Part shown: one piece after another, positions 3,059-11,131 of the stretch | How positions within the stretch are numbered: the first letter of the stretch is position 1 | How the letters are laid out: each line of letters begins with the position of its first letter | Source of the DNA: a virus | Strand: one strand, 5' to 3' | IMG/VR virus record: IMGVR_UViG_3300024343_000146 | Span: 1-20,141 of that record | Length of the DNA stretch: 20,141 nt | Notes under the pieces: generated by a model | What the model saw: the letters and a program-made list of their open reading frames with translations, nothing else | Database searches by the model: none | What the model was told of the DNA's origin: nothing | Translations under genes and position numbers: made by a program

Positions 3059-4123
3059 ATGTCTTTTTTTACAAAATATCCTAAAATAAACTATGATTTA
3101 TTTTCAGACGGTTCTATATTTGAACTCACTGATATTTCTCGTGCTGTAATTATAAATTCGACCCGCATCGCTGATGACAGCGCGCTATATACATACTATA
3201 GCGTAAATGACGGCGATCGCCCCGACGTAGTTTCACATAAGCTTTATCAAAACTCCTCTTATTACTGGACATTTTTTATCGTAAATGATTTTTTACGCGA
3301 CGGCTATACTTCGTCTTGGCCGCTGTCATACAGAAACTTTACGCGAATGATAGAACAAGAATACTCTAAATATTCATCGCTATCAATTAAACCGACTACA
3401 AACCCACAGTTAGAGTTGGACGGCACCGGATTTTTAGATATGTCGTTTATACCACTAACTTCTCAATATTTGCCATATCTAAAGTTTGTGTCTGGTGACG
3501 GCGAGTATCGTTCAAATTTTATTCGATACGACGCAAAAAGACACCAATGCATTATAAGTGACATACACAAAATTATTAATGCAAAAAGAATTGAAGTAGC
3601 GTCTAGAGAAGATTTTGTAGAAAGTAATAATTACGCATATAAAATAGCTTGGGACGACTCGATACGCGAGTTGGAACTGTCTTCTGCAGACGCCAAAGAT
3701 AAAGATAAAGTTTTAAAGGCAGAAACAGATGCGCAAAATAAAAATATTGCTTTAAAGGCGGAATGGATTGATTCAATCTATTCTATGATTACTCAATATG
3801 ATATTACTGGCGCTAGTGAACATGTTGCCGCAAAAACAACAAAGGAAGACTATATTGCCTCTAAGAGACTTATGATAGCAAAGCCGGAGTTTAGGTGGAG
3901 TGACTATTCAAACGCTGCATACGAGTATTATTCGCCAAGCGACGCCGTATTAAGCGCATACGACGCTCTAACAAATGATCTTATAGTTAACCCAAAAATA
4001 ACATCATTTTTTGAGTATGAAACGTCTATTAATGATTCGAAACGAATGATAAGAGTAATACGTCCAGAATTTATAAGTGAATTTTCTGATAGATACTTTA
4101 ATACTATAAATGATGTAGAATAA
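3059..4123 (+). CDS. gp53: gp53 baseplate wedge protein, long form
   Basis: The N-terminal 100 residues are clear gp53: MSFFTKYPKINYDLFSDG at the start, RPDVVSHKLYQNSSYYWTFF (54-73), FIVNDFLRDGY and SWPLSYR. In T4, gp53 helps join neighbouring wedges around the hub and carries a LysM-like fold. The protein has 354 residues against 196 in T4. The extra part includes a charged helical stretch (about 205-245, rich in Lys, Asp, Ala, probably coiled coil) and a C-terminal region with RPEFISEFSDRYFNTI. It starts three bases after the gp48 stop and ends two bases before the hub gene. There is no Shine-Dalgarno sequence. The identity is confident from the N-terminus; the role of the extension is unknown. 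Confidence 0.87.
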   Translation: MSFFTKYPKINYDLFSDGSIFELTDISRAVIINSTRIADDSALYTYYSVNDGDRPDVVSHKLYQNSSYYWTFFIVNDFLRDGYTSSWPLSYRNFTRMIEQEYSKYSSLSIKPTTNPQLELDGTGFLDMSFIPLTSQYLPYLKFVSGDGEYRSNFIRYDAKRHQCIISDIHKIINAKRIEVASREDFVESNNYAYKIAWDDSIRELELSSADAKDKDKVLKAETDAQNKNIALKAEWIDSIYSMITQYDITGASEHVAAKTTKEDYIASKRLMIAKPEFRWSDYSNAAYEYYSPSDAVLSAYDALTNDLIVNPKITSFFEYETSINDSKRMIRVIRPEFISEFSDRYFNTINDVE

Positions 4124-4125
4124 TT

Positions 4126-6063
4126 ATGTCAGCCAAACCAATAGCGCCAGCTCATTCAAAAAATACTCCTAAGATTGGTTATAGCGATCAGGCAAACGTC
4201 AAGTTGCCAGGCGCCTTTGAGGTTGAAAAATTAGATATAATTGACTCTCAAGGAGTTAGAAAAGACATAAGAAGTCTAGTTGAATCGTTTACAATTACCA
4301 GTGAGCTATTTTCTCCAGTACTAACTCTTTCTGCATCCGTACGTGACACTGAAAAATTATTTGAACCAGTTGGCGGCAAACAACTCCAAATATGCGGACA
4401 AGAAAATATTGAAATAAAAATTAAGCCAGCGATTGGAGATGCGATAGAACATACATTTTCAGTAAAGGAATATCCAACTCTTGTTCGTACTTTAGACTTT
4501 CCTCACACACAGATTTATACGCTTTTAGCAATTTCAGAATTTGCTTATCGTAGCAGTCTTATGAATATATGTCGTGTGCTTGATGACGGAAAACGACTAG
4601 ATCAAAATATTGAAACTATTTTTAAAGATGACTTGGGACTAAAAGAATTTAATGTAGAAGGAGAGATAGAAACCAAATTTAAGGGAATTATAAACATTCA
4701 ACGCCCATTGCAAGCCGCTGAGTGGTTGCGTTCACGCTGCTTTACAGAAAACGGCTCTCCGTTTTTCTTATACAGCAACACCACTCGTCCTGGAGAAATA
4801 TTTTTATCTTCGTGGTCCAATCTTTCCGGAAAGACTTCTCCAATCGTTGCAAAATATGAGTTTAAACCATTTATCAAAGAAGAACCTGGAACAGAAAAGC
4901 ATACAGTAGCCGAAAGAAATCGTCTGCTGAGCATGACCTCTTCAATCAAACTCGATCGGCTAAAGGCATCAAACGCTGGTGCCTATGCAAGTCGGTATAA
5001 CGTTATAGATTTTTCTTCGAAAGCATTTTATATTCTAGACTTTAACGGCAAAGAAACGTCTGACTGGAAACCACGTAAATATAACATCAAAGACAGAAGT
5101 GGAAACTCACAAACTGCCACGATGCACACAATTGCAAGCTCGAACGTCGTCAGCGTGCACGTAAATCGTGGTATTTCTGAGTTTGGAGACGGCAACAGCG
5201 GGGGAGTTGCGTATAATTCTATTACTGCGTGCGAACGATACTTACCGCCGTCAAGGGCGCTCTATGCTCGGTTAAACGAGGTTAACCATGATATTGTAGT
5301 CTATGGAGACAGCGCGATGCAACCTGGAGTAAAAATAAATCTAAAGGTGCCAAAGCCAAAATTAGAAAATGATAGACAAGAATCAGAAATTGATGAGCTT
5401 GCGTCTGGAGACTATGTTATTCTCGTCGCGGCATCTGTTTTTTCTAACGGCATATACACAAATAAGTTAAAGGTTGCCAAACTTGTTCCTAGCGTAGAAG
5501 GAAATATATTAGAATCAGTTAAAGGCAGCGCCGGTGATCAAACTGGACAGGGCGCTAGCAACACAAACGTAAATCCAAATGGCGTTGGAAAAACTACACC
5601 CTCAACCGAAAGTCAAAAGGCATACTACAATAAAATGTATAACGCGCTATACAAAGAAGCTGTTGCTAAGGGACTGCCAAATCCAGACGTCGTTGCTCGT
5701 CTTGGAGCTGCCCAAACGTGCTTAGAAACAGGATATGGCACACGAATGGTTGGAAACAACGCGTTTGGAATAAAAGCACACACTGGCACTGGCAACGCTG
5801 GAGCAGTCACTGCCTCAACAAAAGAAGTTATAAATGGGAAAACTGTCACTATAAATGATAGTTTTAGGGCGTATAGCAGCGTAGAAGACAGCGCAAAGGG
5901 CTATATTGATTTCTTGTCTGATAATAAACGATATTCACAGGTACTAGCTTCAACAAATGTTAGTGACGCCGTAACAGCAATAGGACAATCAGGATACGCA
6001 ACTTCGCCAGAGTATGCGCGAGACGTTGGCTCAATCGCTAGAAAATTCCAGTATGAAAATTGA
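4126..6063 (+). CDS. gp27: gp27-type baseplate hub protein fused to a GH73-like glucosaminidase
   Basis: This 645-residue protein has two parts. Residues 30-460 resemble the gp27/gpD-type hub: FEVEKLDIID, RSLVESFTITSELFSPVLTL, then IQRPLQAAEWLRSR (191-204) and FFLYSN. Hub trimers sit at the baseplate centre, below the tail tube, and hold the puncturing spike. Residues 462-497 form a Gly/Asn/Thr/Ser-rich linker. Residues 498-645 look like the GH73 peptidoglycan glucosaminidase family (FlgJ-like): GAAQTCLETGYGTRM with candidate catalytic E534, then NNAFGIKA (544-551), FRAYSSVEDSAKGYIDFL (580-597) and GYATSPEYA (623-631). In T4, gp27 has 391 residues and no enzyme, and a different lysozyme sits in gp5. 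The C-terminus overlaps the start of the next gene by 11 bases. Domain boundaries are estimates by eye; the fusion is directly visible as one frame. Confidence 0.87.
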   Translation: MSAKPIAPAHSKNTPKIGYSDQANVKLPGAFEVEKLDIIDSQGVRKDIRSLVESFTITSELFSPVLTLSASVRDTEKLFEPVGGKQLQICGQENIEIKIKPAIGDAIEHTFSVKEYPTLVRTLDFPHTQIYTLLAISEFAYRSSLMNICRVLDDGKRLDQNIETIFKDDLGLKEFNVEGEIETKFKGIINIQRPLQAAEWLRSRCFTENGSPFFLYSNTTRPGEIFLSSWSNLSGKTSPIVAKYEFKPFIKEEPGTEKHTVAERNRLLSMTSSIKLDRLKASNAGAYASRYNVIDFSSKAFYILDFNGKETSDWKPRKYNIKDRSGNSQTATMHTIASSNVVSVHVNRGISEFGDGNSGGVAYNSITACERYLPPSRALYARLNEVNHDIVVYGDSAMQPGVKINLKVPKPKLENDRQESEIDELASGDYVILVAASVFSNGIYTNKLKVAKLVPSVEGNILESVKGSAGDQTGQGASNTNVNPNGVGKTTPSTESQKAYYNKMYNALYKEAVAKGLPNPDVVARLGAAQTCLETGYGTRMVGNNAFGIKAHTGTGNAGAVTASTKEVINGKTVTINDSFRAYSSVEDSAKGYIDFLSDNKRYSQVLASTNVSDAVTAIGQSGYATSPEYARDVGSIARKFQYEN

Positions 6064-6568
6064 TCATTGGTTTACCGCTATTGTAGAGAATATTGCAGAT
6101 CCGCTAAATGCAGGTCGTGTGCAGATACGTTGTTACGAGTATCACGAACTTGATGACGCAAATAGTATACCCAGTGAAAAATTGCCATGGGCAACTCCAC
6201 TCCTACCAATCACCAGCGCTAGTAATTCGGCTGTAGGCGCGAGCGCAACTGGGTTAATGGTTGGTAGTTGGGTTTTTGGTTTTTTTAGAGACGAAGACCT
6301 ACAAGATCCTGTTATAATTGCAACAATACCAGGAACAACAAATTTAAGCGGAGGCGGCGCCGACATCCCACAAGACGCAATATCATCCTCGGTAGGAAAC
6401 TCATTTGTAAGCGGAACAAATGTTTCGCAGTATGTAGACGGCTCTCCAATAGCAAATTCGGCAAATACTTCTGCGCTTGACGGCGCGCCAGCCGCATGGG
6501 CTGATGAGAAGGTTGCAAAAGGAGCGGTGGATTCATTTGTCAACGATGTACTTAATTCTTCACAATAA
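6053..6568 (+). CDS. gp5: Stand-alone gp5 N-terminal OB-fold protein of the hub
   Basis: This is a 171-residue protein starting at MKIDHW (6053). The frame is open from an upstream ATG at 6014, but the conserved family N-terminus begins here and the start has T directly before ATG as in most genes of the window. Residues 1-93 match the OB-fold of T4 gp5: WFTAIVENIADPLNAGRVQI, EKLPWATPLLPITSA (42-56), GLMVGSWVFGFFRD. In T4 this domain connects the gp27 hub to the lysozyme and needle of the same polypeptide. Here the protein ends in a low-complexity Ser/Ala/Asn tail with no lysozyme and no needle, which are replaced by neighbouring genes. It overlaps the hub gene by 11 bases and the peptidase gene begins eight bases after it. 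How the OB protein binds the needle protein is inferred, not visible. Confidence 0.88.
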   Translation: MKIDHWFTAIVENIADPLNAGRVQIRCYEYHELDDANSIPSEKLPWATPLLPITSASNSAVGASATGLMVGSWVFGFFRDEDLQDPVIIATIPGTTNLSGGGADIPQDAISSSVGNSFVSGTNVSQYVDGSPIANSANTSALDGAPAAWADEKVAKGAVDSFVNDVLNSSQ

Positions 6569-6576
6569 TTATAATT

Positions 6577-7461
6577 ATGTCTAACGTTTCAAATCAATGG
6601 TGCGCTGAAAAATTAACTGGATTTCTAAAATCATCGGTTAAACCAGACAACGCAGATCTTCCTGCAGACACTAGTAGTTTAACTAATTGGCTAAACTGGC
6701 CTCTAGGCAAGGGAGCCAAATATATGACACAAATAGCAAGCCCCAAAACGCTGTATAAGGGCGATATTATTATTAGAAGCGGCGCAGAAGACTATGTTGC
6801 TGTCGTGTATGACGGGGGTCCAGTATCAGGAACCTATAAAATTGCAGAATTTGACTATATTTCTAAAAAGATCACTAAAAAAAGTACTACAGGGCCAGTG
6901 GCGTATATACTACGAATCAGAGGCGCGTATGGAGACCCAGGAATTACAAGTACCGCAGCTGACGGCAAAAAAGTTAGCAGACGATCAAGTTTTCTAACAA
7001 AGTCTGGCTCAGTTGAGGTTGATAAGAGGCTTATTGATATAATTGAAAGTGCTGGTATGGCTATGCCAGACGGCTATACTACGCAGCTAACTTCTGGTGT
7101 ACGTCCAGGAGACTCTAGATTTCACGGTCGTGGAAAAGCAATTGATATACAACTATACCTAAATGGCAAAGCACTAGGACGATATCAAGTTGCGTCAGAC
7201 TTTAGGCACTACGAAATTTTTGCTCAAAAGGCGCGTCAGATTCAAACAGCTAAATATCCAGAGTTAAACGTTGCATTTAGGTTTGGCGGTTATTTCTCAG
7301 GAACACGAGCAAACTATGGCGCGCTAGACTCTATGCATTTTGATATAGGCGGCTCGGCGGGTCTTGGTACCGGTGGCGGGTCTTGGGCAAATGGATTAAC
7401 TTCTACTATGAGAAACTACTGGGCAGGCGTTACGAGTATCGGTATGGGCGGCGTTGCATAA
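6577..7461 (+). CDS. M15-like zinc peptidase with a CHAP-like N-terminal domain
   Basis: This 294-residue protein lies between the gp5 OB and needle genes. Residues 145-256 look like a D,D-peptidase of the M15 (VanY/endolysin) type: TSGVRP (172-177), then HGRGKAIDI giving H183-x2-G-x-A-x-D190, and DSMHFDI giving D251-x2-H254. H183, D190 and H254 would bind zinc and D251 act as base, cutting the peptide part of peptidoglycan. Residues 1-115 resemble a CHAP/NlpC-like domain (NQWCAEKL with C9, KGDIII at 61-66, YVAVVYDG at 73-80). The usual histidine of the G-H-V motif is absent there, so that half is probably inactive or only structural. A Gly-rich tail ends the protein. The context says it is a tail-associated lytic enzyme used during injection, not a holin-dependent endolysin, though the second is possible. 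Confidence 0.78.
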   Translation: MSNVSNQWCAEKLTGFLKSSVKPDNADLPADTSSLTNWLNWPLGKGAKYMTQIASPKTLYKGDIIIRSGAEDYVAVVYDGGPVSGTYKIAEFDYISKKITKKSTTGPVAYILRIRGAYGDPGITSTAADGKKVSRRSSFLTKSGSVEVDKRLIDIIESAGMAMPDGYTTQLTSGVRPGDSRFHGRGKAIDIQLYLNGKALGRYQVASDFRHYEIFAQKARQIQTAKYPELNVAFRFGGYFSGTRANYGALDSMHFDIGGSAGLGTGGGSWANGLTSTMRNYWAGVTSIGMGGVA

Positions 7462-7465
7462 GGCT

Positions 7466-7473
7466 TATATATA
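7466..7473 (+). promoter_or_regulatory. Weak late-promoter-like octamer before the needle gene
   Basis: The 25-base gap before the needle gene holds TATATATA, one mismatch from the late octamer, 13 bases before the ATG at 7487. The spacing differs from the exact promoters, and such strings are common in AT-rich DNA, so this is tentative. Confidence 0.25.
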
Positions 7474-7486
7474 GAATAGACAAATT

Positions 7487-8341
7487 ATGGCAAACAGCAG
7501 CTTTAGTACACCGTTTCCAACCAATCAATCGGTATATCCATACAACAACGTGAATCAGTCGCGTTCAGGGCACGTTTTTGAAGTTGATGACACGCTTGGT
7601 CACGAGCGCATAAAGGAAAAACATAAGTCTGGAACGTATCGTGAAATACACGCAGACGGTTCAAGCACCGTAGTTATAGTTTCGAAGCATCACACAACTA
7701 TACATAGAGACGGCCACGTTACGGTTATTGGCAACGCCAACGTTGATATAGGCGCGGCTGGTTCGGTGTCTAACGTAAATATAACAGTTCATGGCAACGT
7801 TAAAATGGAGGTAACTGGCAACTACGAACAGACTGTTACAGGTGAATATAAATTAAAATGCGGCTCATATAAAAACGAAGTGCTTGGCGATAAAGCTGAA
7901 AGTGTTGTTGGTAAAAAGGACAGCATAATTGGTAACGGCGTAAATAATACCGTTCGGGCCGGCGGCGTAAAAAGCATGGTTGTTGGCAGCGTTGAAAAAA
8001 CCGTTCTTGGAGGATACACTGGAATATACACCGGCGCGGCTGATACGACTGCACTTCTTGGAGTGAGTATGTCATCGCCAGCAGGCCCAGCCACAATTGG
8101 AGGCCTCTCTGCATGCGTTGACAGCGCGACTACATTAAACATGACTTCGCTTGGGCTGACAAATATGACTTCATCATTTACAAATATAACTACGCCGCTA
8201 GTTACTGTACTTGGAGGAGGGGTTGTGGCGGCCGGAGACGTACGAGCAGCTGCTGGAACTACCGGGTTGTTAACTCACCTTCACCTCGGCGACGGATCGA
8301 AGGGCATTCCAACCCCGACGGTGCCTGGAGCTCTTGGATAA
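7487..8341 (+). CDS. gp5 C-terminal/VgrG-like beta-helix needle with His-x-His tip
   Basis: This 284-residue protein corresponds to the C-terminal needle of T4 gp5. Residues 28-60 carry the known neck motif: GHVFEVDDTLGHERIKEKHK, then GTYREIHADGSS. From about 60 to 180 short strands repeat every eight or so residues with Val, Gly and Asn (VTGNYEQTVTGEY, VLGDKAESVVG, VGSVEKTVLGG), typical of the intertwined trimeric beta-helix that pierces the outer membrane. The C-terminus ends with GDVRAAAGTTGLLTHLHLGD and a Pro-rich tail. H264 and H266 form a His-x-His like the iron-binding tips of P2 gpV-type spikes. T4 instead uses a separate PAAR tip protein, gp5.4, which I do not see here. It probably assembles on the OB-fold protein encoded at 6053. 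Confidence 0.87.
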   Translation: MANSSFSTPFPTNQSVYPYNNVNQSRSGHVFEVDDTLGHERIKEKHKSGTYREIHADGSSTVVIVSKHHTTIHRDGHVTVIGNANVDIGAAGSVSNVNITVHGNVKMEVTGNYEQTVTGEYKLKCGSYKNEVLGDKAESVVGKKDSIIGNGVNNTVRAGGVKSMVVGSVEKTVLGGYTGIYTGAADTTALLGVSMSSPAGPATIGGLSACVDSATTLNMTSLGLTNMTSSFTNITTPLVTVLGGGVVAAGDVRAAAGTTGLLTHLHLGDGSKGIPTPTVPGALG

Positions 8342-8362: not shown

Positions 8363-11131
8363 ATGCCACTTACAATTTCTAATATTGCTGACCAAAACCT
8401 GCTTGGGGTGGCGGCAAGCACTGGCCCACTTGCCTTTACAATCGCATATCCAGAAAATCCGTCAGCAACATTTACAGTTAGTGCTAGCAGTAGCAACGTT
8501 GCTCTTGTGCCAAACAGCAACGTCGTGCTTGGAGGCAGCGGCGCAAGCCGTACCGTTACGGTGACGCCGCTAAGCAGCAAAAAGGGCACTGCAACAATCA
8601 CAATTACTGCAACAGTAAGCGGCACTGCAGTTACTGCGTCTAAAACATTTTTATTTACGGCAAATCGACCGTCGGTATACACCGATACGTATATGGACTG
8701 GACAGCGATAACTGGTCCGGTTGATACCTATTTGTATATAAATTTTAAGCCTGAAGTGTTTAACAGCGAAACACTTACTTATGGAAATTTTAAAGAACAA
8801 CATCGTCCAATAGAATTAATCTATAACGGTCAAGCTCGTTTTCAGGATCTAATAGAAAGTTTTACAATCGTTACTCAGGTTGGGGCAAATGGGATCAATC
8901 GAGCTCCTTTTAACGTTGAAACTCCAGTTAATCCATATAACTATGGTACGTCAGGGCCGACGATGCTAAAAAGACGACCATGGAGAGTTGAAATAATACC
9001 TGTAACAGACCCAGGTCTTACAGTTGATATACAATATGAAAGTAGAATGGCTGGCGTCTCTAATGTTCCAAAAAGAGTTGGCCGCTATGACATTACTATA
9101 AACGCTACATACGTTCGTAACTTACCAATAGTCTCCTATCCCGATATTCAAAACGGAATATATCCAACAGACTTGCATAATGGCACGTATCGTGGTTTTT
9201 GGAGCAGCTATCAAGACAAGCCAAATACGGTTCCATCCCAAGGCAGCATATTTTCAGAAATATCGTTTGGCAACCCATTTTTTGATATCAACGAGGATGT
9301 GTTAACTGAAGAGGAACTTAATAATCTTAAGTTTGAAACGGTTTTGTATGATTTTAATACACGCCGGGCTCCATACAAGGGTTATGGCGACCCTTCTAAA
9401 TATCTAGTAATACACCCACGCCCAATAGGGGCTACGTTTACTAAAACTGAATTTGCGTATTATGGAAATACACACGTTCCCGAATTTATTACCGATCCTC
9501 AAATACTAGACGTCGACGACCCGAACTATCCTGGCAATATACCTGTTAGGTTAACGTACGCAAAGGCAAACGAAACGTCTTCGGATCTTTTTTCTGCGTT
9601 GGCTCCTCCAATTGAAGTCGGAACATACACCGTTACCTTAGAAGCGGTAGATTTAAACTATACTGGCTCAGTAACCCAAGAAATTAAGGTAGTTCCAGTT
9701 TCGCCGTCTGCTGCGCAAGAAGCAGCAACAGAATATCAAGAGAAAATAGATATTTTTGAAGCAGAAGTAGTTTCTACTCCAAAAAATAGCAGTTTAAGCA
9801 GCTCATCCGTTATATCATACTCTGAAAATGTGTCAACTTCAGACTTTATAAAGAGTGGAGTACTTTCGTTTCTAGAAAAAAGTGATATTCCAGCACTTGG
9901 CACAGTAAAAACTCTCGCTGAATGCGCTCAAAATTTACCACAAAAATTGATGTTGTTTGTTGCAGCGAAGATTGCTGCGCTTGTACTTAGTTATATTCCA
10001 GGAACTGGCATTTTAAAATTGCTAACTAGTGTGATGGATCTTATTAAAAAAGTCCAACAAATAATGGCACTGATTGAATTTATTAAAGACAATCCATGGG
10101 CATTTGCAAATATGGTTCTTGAAGCCACCGGCGCGTATGCCAAACTGGGTGCCATTGCGAACGAACAAATTGATGCGCTTAAATCACAGTTTCCAGGCAT
10201 TACATCAGGCATTGGTGACGTCGCGGGATTTGTAAAAGATGCTGCAAATGGTCTTGTTGATATTTGTAACGCGGTTGATATAAATGGCAACCCACTCGCT
10301 AAGTATATAAAGGCAGACAACACAAAGGTGCCAGAGGCAATTGTAGCGTTTATTCCAGCCACTTCGCGACAACCTGTTGAGGCAAAGGGCAAGTATGATC
10401 TCTTTCAATTTAGGTTAAGAGAGGCGTTAAATAAAGACACTGATAAAATAAACACGTTAACAGCTGAAGGAGACACCGTTGGAGTGCAGGAGTATGTTTC
10501 AATGCTTACCGCGGTGCACGAACTCGCATACAACTATCACGACCGCATTGCAGCTACTGGGTCAGGCTCTGGGCTGTTGAGTGGAAGCAGCACGACCTCT
10601 GACGGCTTAGACTCGGTTTACAATATACTCAGTGAGGCGACAGGCATACTTTCTAGCGTCTATCCACAAAATTCTGGCACAACAAACATTACAACCACCG
10701 ATACGAGCGGAAGCAAAAAGAAAGCAGGTCTTTCAGTAGACACATTAAATTCTGGCTTTAATACTGCCGCAAATATAGTTAGCGGAATTACAAGTGGGGT
10801 AGGGTCTGTTGGAAGCTTCTTGTCCGGGGAGACCGGCTTTTCTTTAACCGGGCTTAAAAATGAGTTTAATTATTTTGCAAAAGAAACGTTGCTGAAAAAT
10901 CCTGCCTGGTCATCAGAAACCGTTAACGAGTATAACAAGCGGGTAAATAAAATAAAATACGAAATGGAAAACAACTCCGAAGCAATACGCAACAACCCAG
11001 CAAATGCGGGCGCGTCTGCTGCCTCAAGCGTGAATTCTGCCTCTTCCTCCTCGTCCTCTGGCAGTTCTTTTTTAAATAGAATAAGTTCATTTGCAGGCTC
11101 CCCGCTCGCTAGTACGTTTTTAAACAAATAA
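8363..11131 (+). CDS. Large structural protein: Ig-like domain, MBG-like region, helical C-terminal half
   Basis: This is a 922-residue protein I cannot assign to a T4 gene. Residues 3-100 form one Ig/cadherin-like domain of a type common in surface proteins (LTISNIADQNLLG, SSNVALVPNSNVVLGGSG, RTVTVTPL, GTATITITATV). Residues 120-250 and about 345-443 are beta-rich and resemble MBG-type domains (GRYDITINATY, VGTYTVTLEAVDLNYTGS). From 495 the character changes to helices: a hydrophobic stretch around 528-556, then amphipathic helices to about 615 and again 675-730. The end (730-922) is Gly/Ser/Asn-rich with a run of serines at 893-899. It lies between the needle and gp25 genes, where T4 has only small genes such as 5.4, and shares their strand. 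A baseplate, hub-associated or injected protein is plausible; a tape measure is less likely because the length is largely beta domains. Confidence 0.7.
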   Translation: MPLTISNIADQNLLGVAASTGPLAFTIAYPENPSATFTVSASSSNVALVPNSNVVLGGSGASRTVTVTPLSSKKGTATITITATVSGTAVTASKTFLFTANRPSVYTDTYMDWTAITGPVDTYLYINFKPEVFNSETLTYGNFKEQHRPIELIYNGQARFQDLIESFTIVTQVGANGINRAPFNVETPVNPYNYGTSGPTMLKRRPWRVEIIPVTDPGLTVDIQYESRMAGVSNVPKRVGRYDITINATYVRNLPIVSYPDIQNGIYPTDLHNGTYRGFWSSYQDKPNTVPSQGSIFSEISFGNPFFDINEDVLTEEELNNLKFETVLYDFNTRRAPYKGYGDPSKYLVIHPRPIGATFTKTEFAYYGNTHVPEFITDPQILDVDDPNYPGNIPVRLTYAKANETSSDLFSALAPPIEVGTYTVTLEAVDLNYTGSVTQEIKVVPVSPSAAQEAATEYQEKIDIFEAEVVSTPKNSSLSSSSVISYSENVSTSDFIKSGVLSFLEKSDIPALGTVKTLAECAQNLPQKLMLFVAAKIAALVLSYIPGTGILKLLTSVMDLIKKVQQIMALIEFIKDNPWAFANMVLEATGAYAKLGAIANEQIDALKSQFPGITSGIGDVAGFVKDAANGLVDICNAVDINGNPLAKYIKADNTKVPEAIVAFIPATSRQPVEAKGKYDLFQFRLREALNKDTDKINTLTAEGDTVGVQEYVSMLTAVHELAYNYHDRIAATGSGSGLLSGSSTTSDGLDSVYNILSEATGILSSVYPQNSGTTNITTTDTSGSKKKAGLSVDTLNSGFNTAANIVSGITSGVGSVGSFLSGETGFSLTGLKNEFNYFAKETLLKNPAWSSETVNEYNKRVNKIKYEMENNSEAIRNNPANAGASAASSVNSASSSSSSGSSFLNRISSFAGSPLASTFLNK

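Follow-up and report, generated by a model that had tools for sequence, protein, structure and literature searches.

We examined the tail-spike genes in a 20,141-nucleotide stretch of viral DNA (positions 1-20,141 of IMG/VR record IMGVR_UViG_3300024343_000146, a single metagenomic contig), referred to below as the window. Its source is a relative of phage T4 known from environmental DNA alone. Four open reading frames (ORFs) encode, in order, a gp27-type baseplate hub, a spike OB-fold protein, a separate peptidase-type protein that we call P3, and a needle (Table 1), and this gene order is the domain order of T4. In the window and in the relatives that share the arrangement, here termed split, separate ORFs stand in place of one cleaved gp5 precursor. 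We propose that these genes probably build a T4-type spike whose wall enzyme is an exchangeable cartridge carried on a degenerate CHAP adapter.

Table 1. Spike genes of the window, their domains and residues, and the gene that follows them
Feature	Position	Strand	Evidence
Baseplate hub, gp27-type, C-terminal GH73 fusion	4126-6063	+	phrog_350, 3e-31
GH73 glucosaminidase domain, hub residues 521-641	5686-6048	+	Pfam PF01832, 4.6e-22
Hub Glu534, catalytic	5725-5727	+	motif QTCLETGYG
Spike OB-fold protein, 171 aa, equivalent of T4 gp5 N-terminal domain	6053-6568	+	Gp5_OB (PF06714), 8e-17
OB C-terminal helix AVDSFVNDVL (158-167), putatively left over from CHAP helix 1	6524-6553	+	aligns with helix 1 of the CHAP in fused chains
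P3, separate peptidase-type protein	6577-7461	+	
P3 front, residues 1-119, degenerate CHAP	6577-6933	+	BLASTP to L179 OB-CHAP chain, 38% identity, E 2e-26
P3 Cys9, retained	6601-6603	+	
P3 Tyr73, in place of catalytic His	6793-6795	+	
P3 payload, residues 131-263, predicted M15-type zinc peptidase	6967-7365	+	motif, profile, AlphaFold2 (AF2) model
Payload zinc ligands H183, D190, H254	7123, 7144, 7336	+	motif alignment
Payload base D251	7327	+	motif alignment
Needle, triple-stranded beta-helix, equivalent of T4 gp5C	7487-8341	+	T4 gp5 376-461, E 1.1e-25 (profile against solved structures)
Needle apex THLHLGDG...PTPTVPGALG with HxH	8273-8338	+	conserved in close relatives (THxHxGDG)
922-aa protein after needle	8363-11131		

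The original prediction had described a gp27-type hub fused to a GH73-like glucosaminidase, an enzyme-free OB protein, a separate M15-like peptidase and a separate needle, with the T4-type lysozyme gone, and these features held up, the gp27 type and the M15 fold as predicted assignments. The phrog_350 match spans hub residues 25-440, and the hubs of relatives are 53-92% identical to that of the window. One member of phrog_350, from phiM12, carries an annotation that cites an HHpred match to gp27; our hub profile did not match a gp27 chain in the PDB, and the gp27 identity is backed by gene order. The GH73 domain scores 79 bits in Pfam (cut-off 30), matches FlgJ structures in a profile search (E 6e-16) and, with its catalytic motif present, is predicted to be active. 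The OB gene overlaps the hub gene by 11 bases; its start was corrected to 6053, because relatives begin MKI-HWF and the first listed ATG (6014) is too early. We did not find a T4-type lysozyme or a second Gp5_OB gene in the 173.8 kb relative L110, and Phage_lysozyme had no match in the contigs of four relatives searched.

The needle also matches phrog_430 (3e-34), and by sequence comparison its gene starts close to the T4 gp5 maturation cut. By analogy with the Mu and P2 spikes, its HxH apex may be the needle's own metal-binding tip; a PAAR protein was not found in the four relatives' contigs searched, which include the 173.8 kb relative.

The payload of P3 is predicted to be an active M15-type zinc peptidase with a fold nearest to L-Ala-D-Glu endopeptidases. 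Its motifs H183-x6-D190 and D251-x-x-H254 are conserved in relatives with the same module (type A), and a profile comparison with M15_3 gave P 5e-6 (hhalign; negative controls 0.01-0.14). The AF2 model is of moderate confidence over residues 131-263. VIA-align placed it closest to ChiX (Z 7.5) and the T5 L-Ala-D-Glu endopeptidase (Z 6.1), with MepA and VanX also listed; all rows at Z >=5.3 were M15 or Hedgehog, the best Z of 7.5 lying below this tool's caution level of 8. M15 and Hedgehog domains have a common fold. Foldseek alone returned nothing below E 0.001 for the P3 model, and its best match was a Hedgehog domain. The sister module in L109 passes the Pfam M15_3 cut-off (55 bits, 8e-15). 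We also observed the type A domain in many other phage and prophage contigs (L119-L138), and in Rhizobium phages L338C and RHph_I4 it is part of tape measure genes.

P3 and the modules exchanged at its position

Relatives (L numbers) were gathered through gp6-anchored and OB-anchored surveys. In a large group of these phages OB is fused to an intact CHAP and the needle is separate, and the 451-residue OB-CHAP-GH75 chain of L179 is collinear with the OB protein of the window (71% identity over OB residues 1-147) followed by the P3 front (38%). A CHAP-only profile, built solely from fused CHAPs, picks up the fronts of split members at 1.4e-7 to 6e-4 (window 3e-4, L109 1.4e-7), and a reversed-sequence control gave no match. 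We did not find a relative of the P3 front in the genome collection. The L179 and profile matches make the front a true CHAP homologue, in agreement with the CHAP-like front of the original prediction.

The split front is also present in 16 database contigs. The fronts are 56-79% identical to that of the window, yet four different modules lie behind them: a type A M15 domain in the window and L005, a type B M15 domain in L007-L011, an M15_3 domain in L109-L112, and in L113 a domain without a Pfam or PDB match. Between the window and L009, nonsynonymous divergence (dN) is 0.13 for the front and 0.96 for the payload. Other relatives differ further at this position. In L179 a GH75 chitosanase-like module follows the CHAP, and in L233 and L234 VanY is joined directly to OB with no CHAP, the OB being 84-86% identical to that of the window. 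The L179-L190 group has a bare OB, an OB-CHAP-GH75-type chain, mostly an additional CHAP protein, and the needle. At least six different wall-enzyme arrangements are found at one T4-type spike position among close relatives, a natural series in which the enzyme-loading rules of a contractile needle can be compared.

The module of L113 (3236-3784) had been considered by eye as an L,D-transpeptidase (HRGG...SLGCQT), which neither Pfam nor PDB searches support; this C-terminal module is linked to phrog_3000. Ahead of the needle, L179 (1471-5063), L188 (6001-9589) and L176 (5980-8982) carry a bare OB gene, a second OB gene fused to CHAP, and a separate CHAP protein, with the GH75 chitosanase-like domain on the CHAP-fused OB of L179 and L188. 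It is possible that these two-OB sister phages build a hetero-oligomeric spike.

Exchange also touches the hub. GH73 is present on the hubs of the window, L005, L009, L113 and L243. The hubs of sister phages L109-L112, among them the 173.8 kb record L110, lack it, which makes the two-cutter state lineage-specific. Synonymous divergence (dS) between window 5611-6060 and L009 5062-5511 is 0.31 for GH73, far under the 1.63 of the hub core, from which it seems that the GH73 module itself was recently exchanged. The L233 hub (3115-5001) is longer at its C-terminus by about 170 residues, which are distinct from GH73 and matched no Pfam family; they could be another exchanged module.

The same survey bears on whether P3 belongs to the spike at all. 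M15 domains are common in endolysins, and related type A domains occur in the tape measure genes of other phages, so P3 could be a lysis enzyme or helper that is merely located in this operon. However, P3 always lies between OB and needle, the same CHAP is fused to the OB chain in sister phages, and other relatives have peptidases fused to their OB or needle chains. We consider a role outside the spike unlikely.

Catalytic residues of the P3 front

CHAP domains need a Cys-His pair. The P3 front retains the Cys and has a Tyr at the position of the catalytic His. Both catalytic residues are present in all 60 complete non-split CHAPs (fused or separate) of our alignment, where the rows tallied as non-split include five (L114-L118) that are copies of the window lineage; Tyr replaces His in every split member (the 16 database contigs) and in 0/60 of the others. 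L243 has lost the Cys as well (Ser, WSA). We predict that the front is catalytically dead; with a dN/dS of 0.05 it is still held by purifying selection.

Almost all split members retain Cys9 and the WCA motif, and this, together with the low front dN/dS, could also be expected if P3 were an active two-headed peptidase whose CHAP works with Cys and Tyr, giving three cutters in the device. The family's requirement for the Cys-His pair, the invariant His replacement and the further loss of Cys in L243 speak against this, and we judge it improbable. Of the two or three wall cutters originally proposed, two (GH73 and the M15-type payload) are predicted to be active, and the CHAP-like front that has lost its His drops out as a third.

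The break between OB and P3, and a proposed mechanism

In the fused chains, CHAP opens with a helix some 20-40 residues ahead of the Cys. In the split phages, the OB chain terminates in, or shortly after, a matching helix. Shuffle tests of this helix against the L179 chain gave p<=0.001 for L109, L243 and L009 and a marginal p of 0.045 for L113, and the controls L233 and OB1, whose OB lacks a joined CHAP of this kind, were not significant. It is possible that P3 is docked non-covalently on OB through this leftover CHAP helix, by fold complementation, which would be a candidate answer to the question raised in the original prediction of what holds the peptidase in place. We tentatively hypothesize, while leaning somewhat against it, that the gene break lies inside the CHAP fold, with helix 1 left on OB and the remainder forming the P3 front, and that both parts rebuild a dead CHAP as a non-covalent socket for exchangeable wall enzymes. 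If so, this would be a viral injection device with an enzyme turned docking joint.

In our first OB tree, the split members fall inside the OB-CHAP clade (100/99), so the fusion looks older and the split derived; an OB tree with more members was less resolved. The hub tree groups L109 and L110 closely with the fused L184 and L188 despite their differing OB and CHAP arrangement, and these topologies make recombination between the hub and OB genes likely.

A fused OB-CHAP-M15 chain would still be made if OB and P3 were partly joined by recoding, through read-through or frameshift. L113 offers the best case, with OB and P3 in one frame and nothing but TAA and ATT between them ahead of the ATG (2876-2884). 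However, P3 of the window is read in another frame than OB, and that frame closes on the upstream side at 6553, OB and P3 of L109 lie in different frames with a 38-base spacer, and no common recoding signal was seen; we regard recoding as very improbable. An assembly or sequencing artefact of a single gp5, which the original prediction had named beforehand as a possible refutation and which might be suspected of one metagenomic contig of 20 kb, can be dismissed with near certainty because independent related contigs from several samples show the same layout with differing sequences and junctions and low dN/dS. The four-gene layout is under strong purifying selection in relatives: dN/dS between the window and L005 is 0.03-0.06 in every spike part, at dS 0.64-1.05.

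In the cartridge arrangement that we favor, three hub subunits with their GH73 domains would surround a presumably trimeric OB protein, and the needle would be a separate chain beginning near the T4 gp5 cut. P3 would occupy the former place of the T4 lysozyme domain. Its front, a CHAP from an OB-CHAP fused chain minus the His, would only seat P3 on the spike, and its C-terminal domain would be the working cutter, where relatives carry other modules. Upon sheath contraction the needle would pierce the outer membrane and then be shed, and afterwards GH73 and the peptidase would clear the way for the tube by cleaving glycan and peptide bonds. If a dead CHAP does serve as a mount, an enzyme has become a structural part by an uncommon path, one that offers a ready model of cargo acquisition by spike proteins.

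This arrangement builds on the observed anatomy, homologies, His loss, module exchange and purifying selection, and several points weigh against it. The presence of P3 in virions and its activity are inferred from sequence, and P3 of the window alone has no Pfam match at the curated cut-off. The AF2 model of the front is of low confidence (block means 33-80); CHAP is missing from the structure-match list for the front, which is uninformative at that confidence. The OB helix of the window was not significant by itself in the shuffle test (p 0.10), and a model of L113 OB and P3 joined by read-through, inspected for packing of the helix on the front, had a mean predicted local distance difference test (pLDDT) score of 33 and gave docking no structural support. 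Finally, the number of splitting events is unsure because the hub and OB trees disagree.

Genomic setting and comparison with known systems

The spike genes are flanked by genes of a T4-type phage, namely tail tube, tube cap, gp53, gp25 and gp6 (Pfam and phrog matches), and the gp6 of the window has its nearest counterparts in Methylophilales phage Melnitz and other Kyanoviridae (33-37%). Photosystem genes, sought as a hint of the host, were not found. The 922-aa protein encoded after the needle has an N-terminal half that is variable in relatives, with a weak Ig-like (MBG) match, and a conserved C-terminal part.

The T4 gp27-gp5-gp5.4 device runs, as here, from hub through OB and enzyme slot to beta-helix, and the needle of the window is homologous to gp5C. 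The mature T4 device, (gp27-gp5*-gp5C)3 after cleavage at Ser351/Ala352 (PMC3004832), is likewise made of separate chains, so the device rebuilt from four genes in the original prediction is confirmed at the level of ORFs but is less radical than it seemed, the T4 cut lying near the needle start. The two systems differ in that T4 cleaves a precursor where the window has separate genes. The window carries GH73 on the hub and an M15 payload on a degenerate CHAP, with the T4-type lysozyme absent, and the T4 tip is gp5.4 where the needle here has its own HxH apex, no PAAR having been found in the largest relative. Spackle-like proteins inhibit T4 gp5 by binding to its lysozyme domain (PMC7677548), and escape from such proteins as one driver of module exchange is a speculation that we raise here.

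Hubs or spikes that combine two kinds of cutter are already known, as measured in A-1(L) and by annotation or domain search in BUCT-ZZ01, Melnitz and phiM12. The pairing of a glycan and a peptide cutter foreseen in the original prediction is predicted for the window as well, and is neither new nor general to its relatives. Hub gp15 of Anabaena myophage A-1(L) has demonstrated endoglucanase and peptidase activities (PMC10966104), and thus two kinds of wall-cutting domain on the hub, but all of its enzymes are on the hub chain, and no split spike or degenerate CHAP adapter has been described for it. Synechococcus phage BUCT-ZZ01 gp5, together with contigs L051, L065 and L094, combines GH19 and M15_3-like domains in a T4-type spike, but as a single chain of ~940-1060 aa in the order OB, GH19, needle, M15_3. 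Melnitz has OB and a VanY-like peptidase in one gene and the needle in the next; it differs in a second M15_3-like domain on the needle gene, giving two peptidases, and no GH73 hub or CHAP was found in it. Sinorhizobium phage phiM12 shares a gp27-type hub, wall enzymes in two genes and an adjacent M15_3 protein, but its OB, needle and muramidase are in one chain and its M15_3 protein is long and probably helical.

In a literature search of partial coverage, we came across no account of a split spike that retains part of a CHAP, or of an enzyme slot on a degenerate CHAP exchanged among close relatives. The direct relatives of the window are the OB-CHAP phages (L019, L022, L140-L193) and those with OB-CHAP-GH75 (L179, L188), which have the same OB and CHAP and a separate needle. 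They differ from it in that CHAP is fused to OB with Cys and His intact, with no split and no M15 payload.

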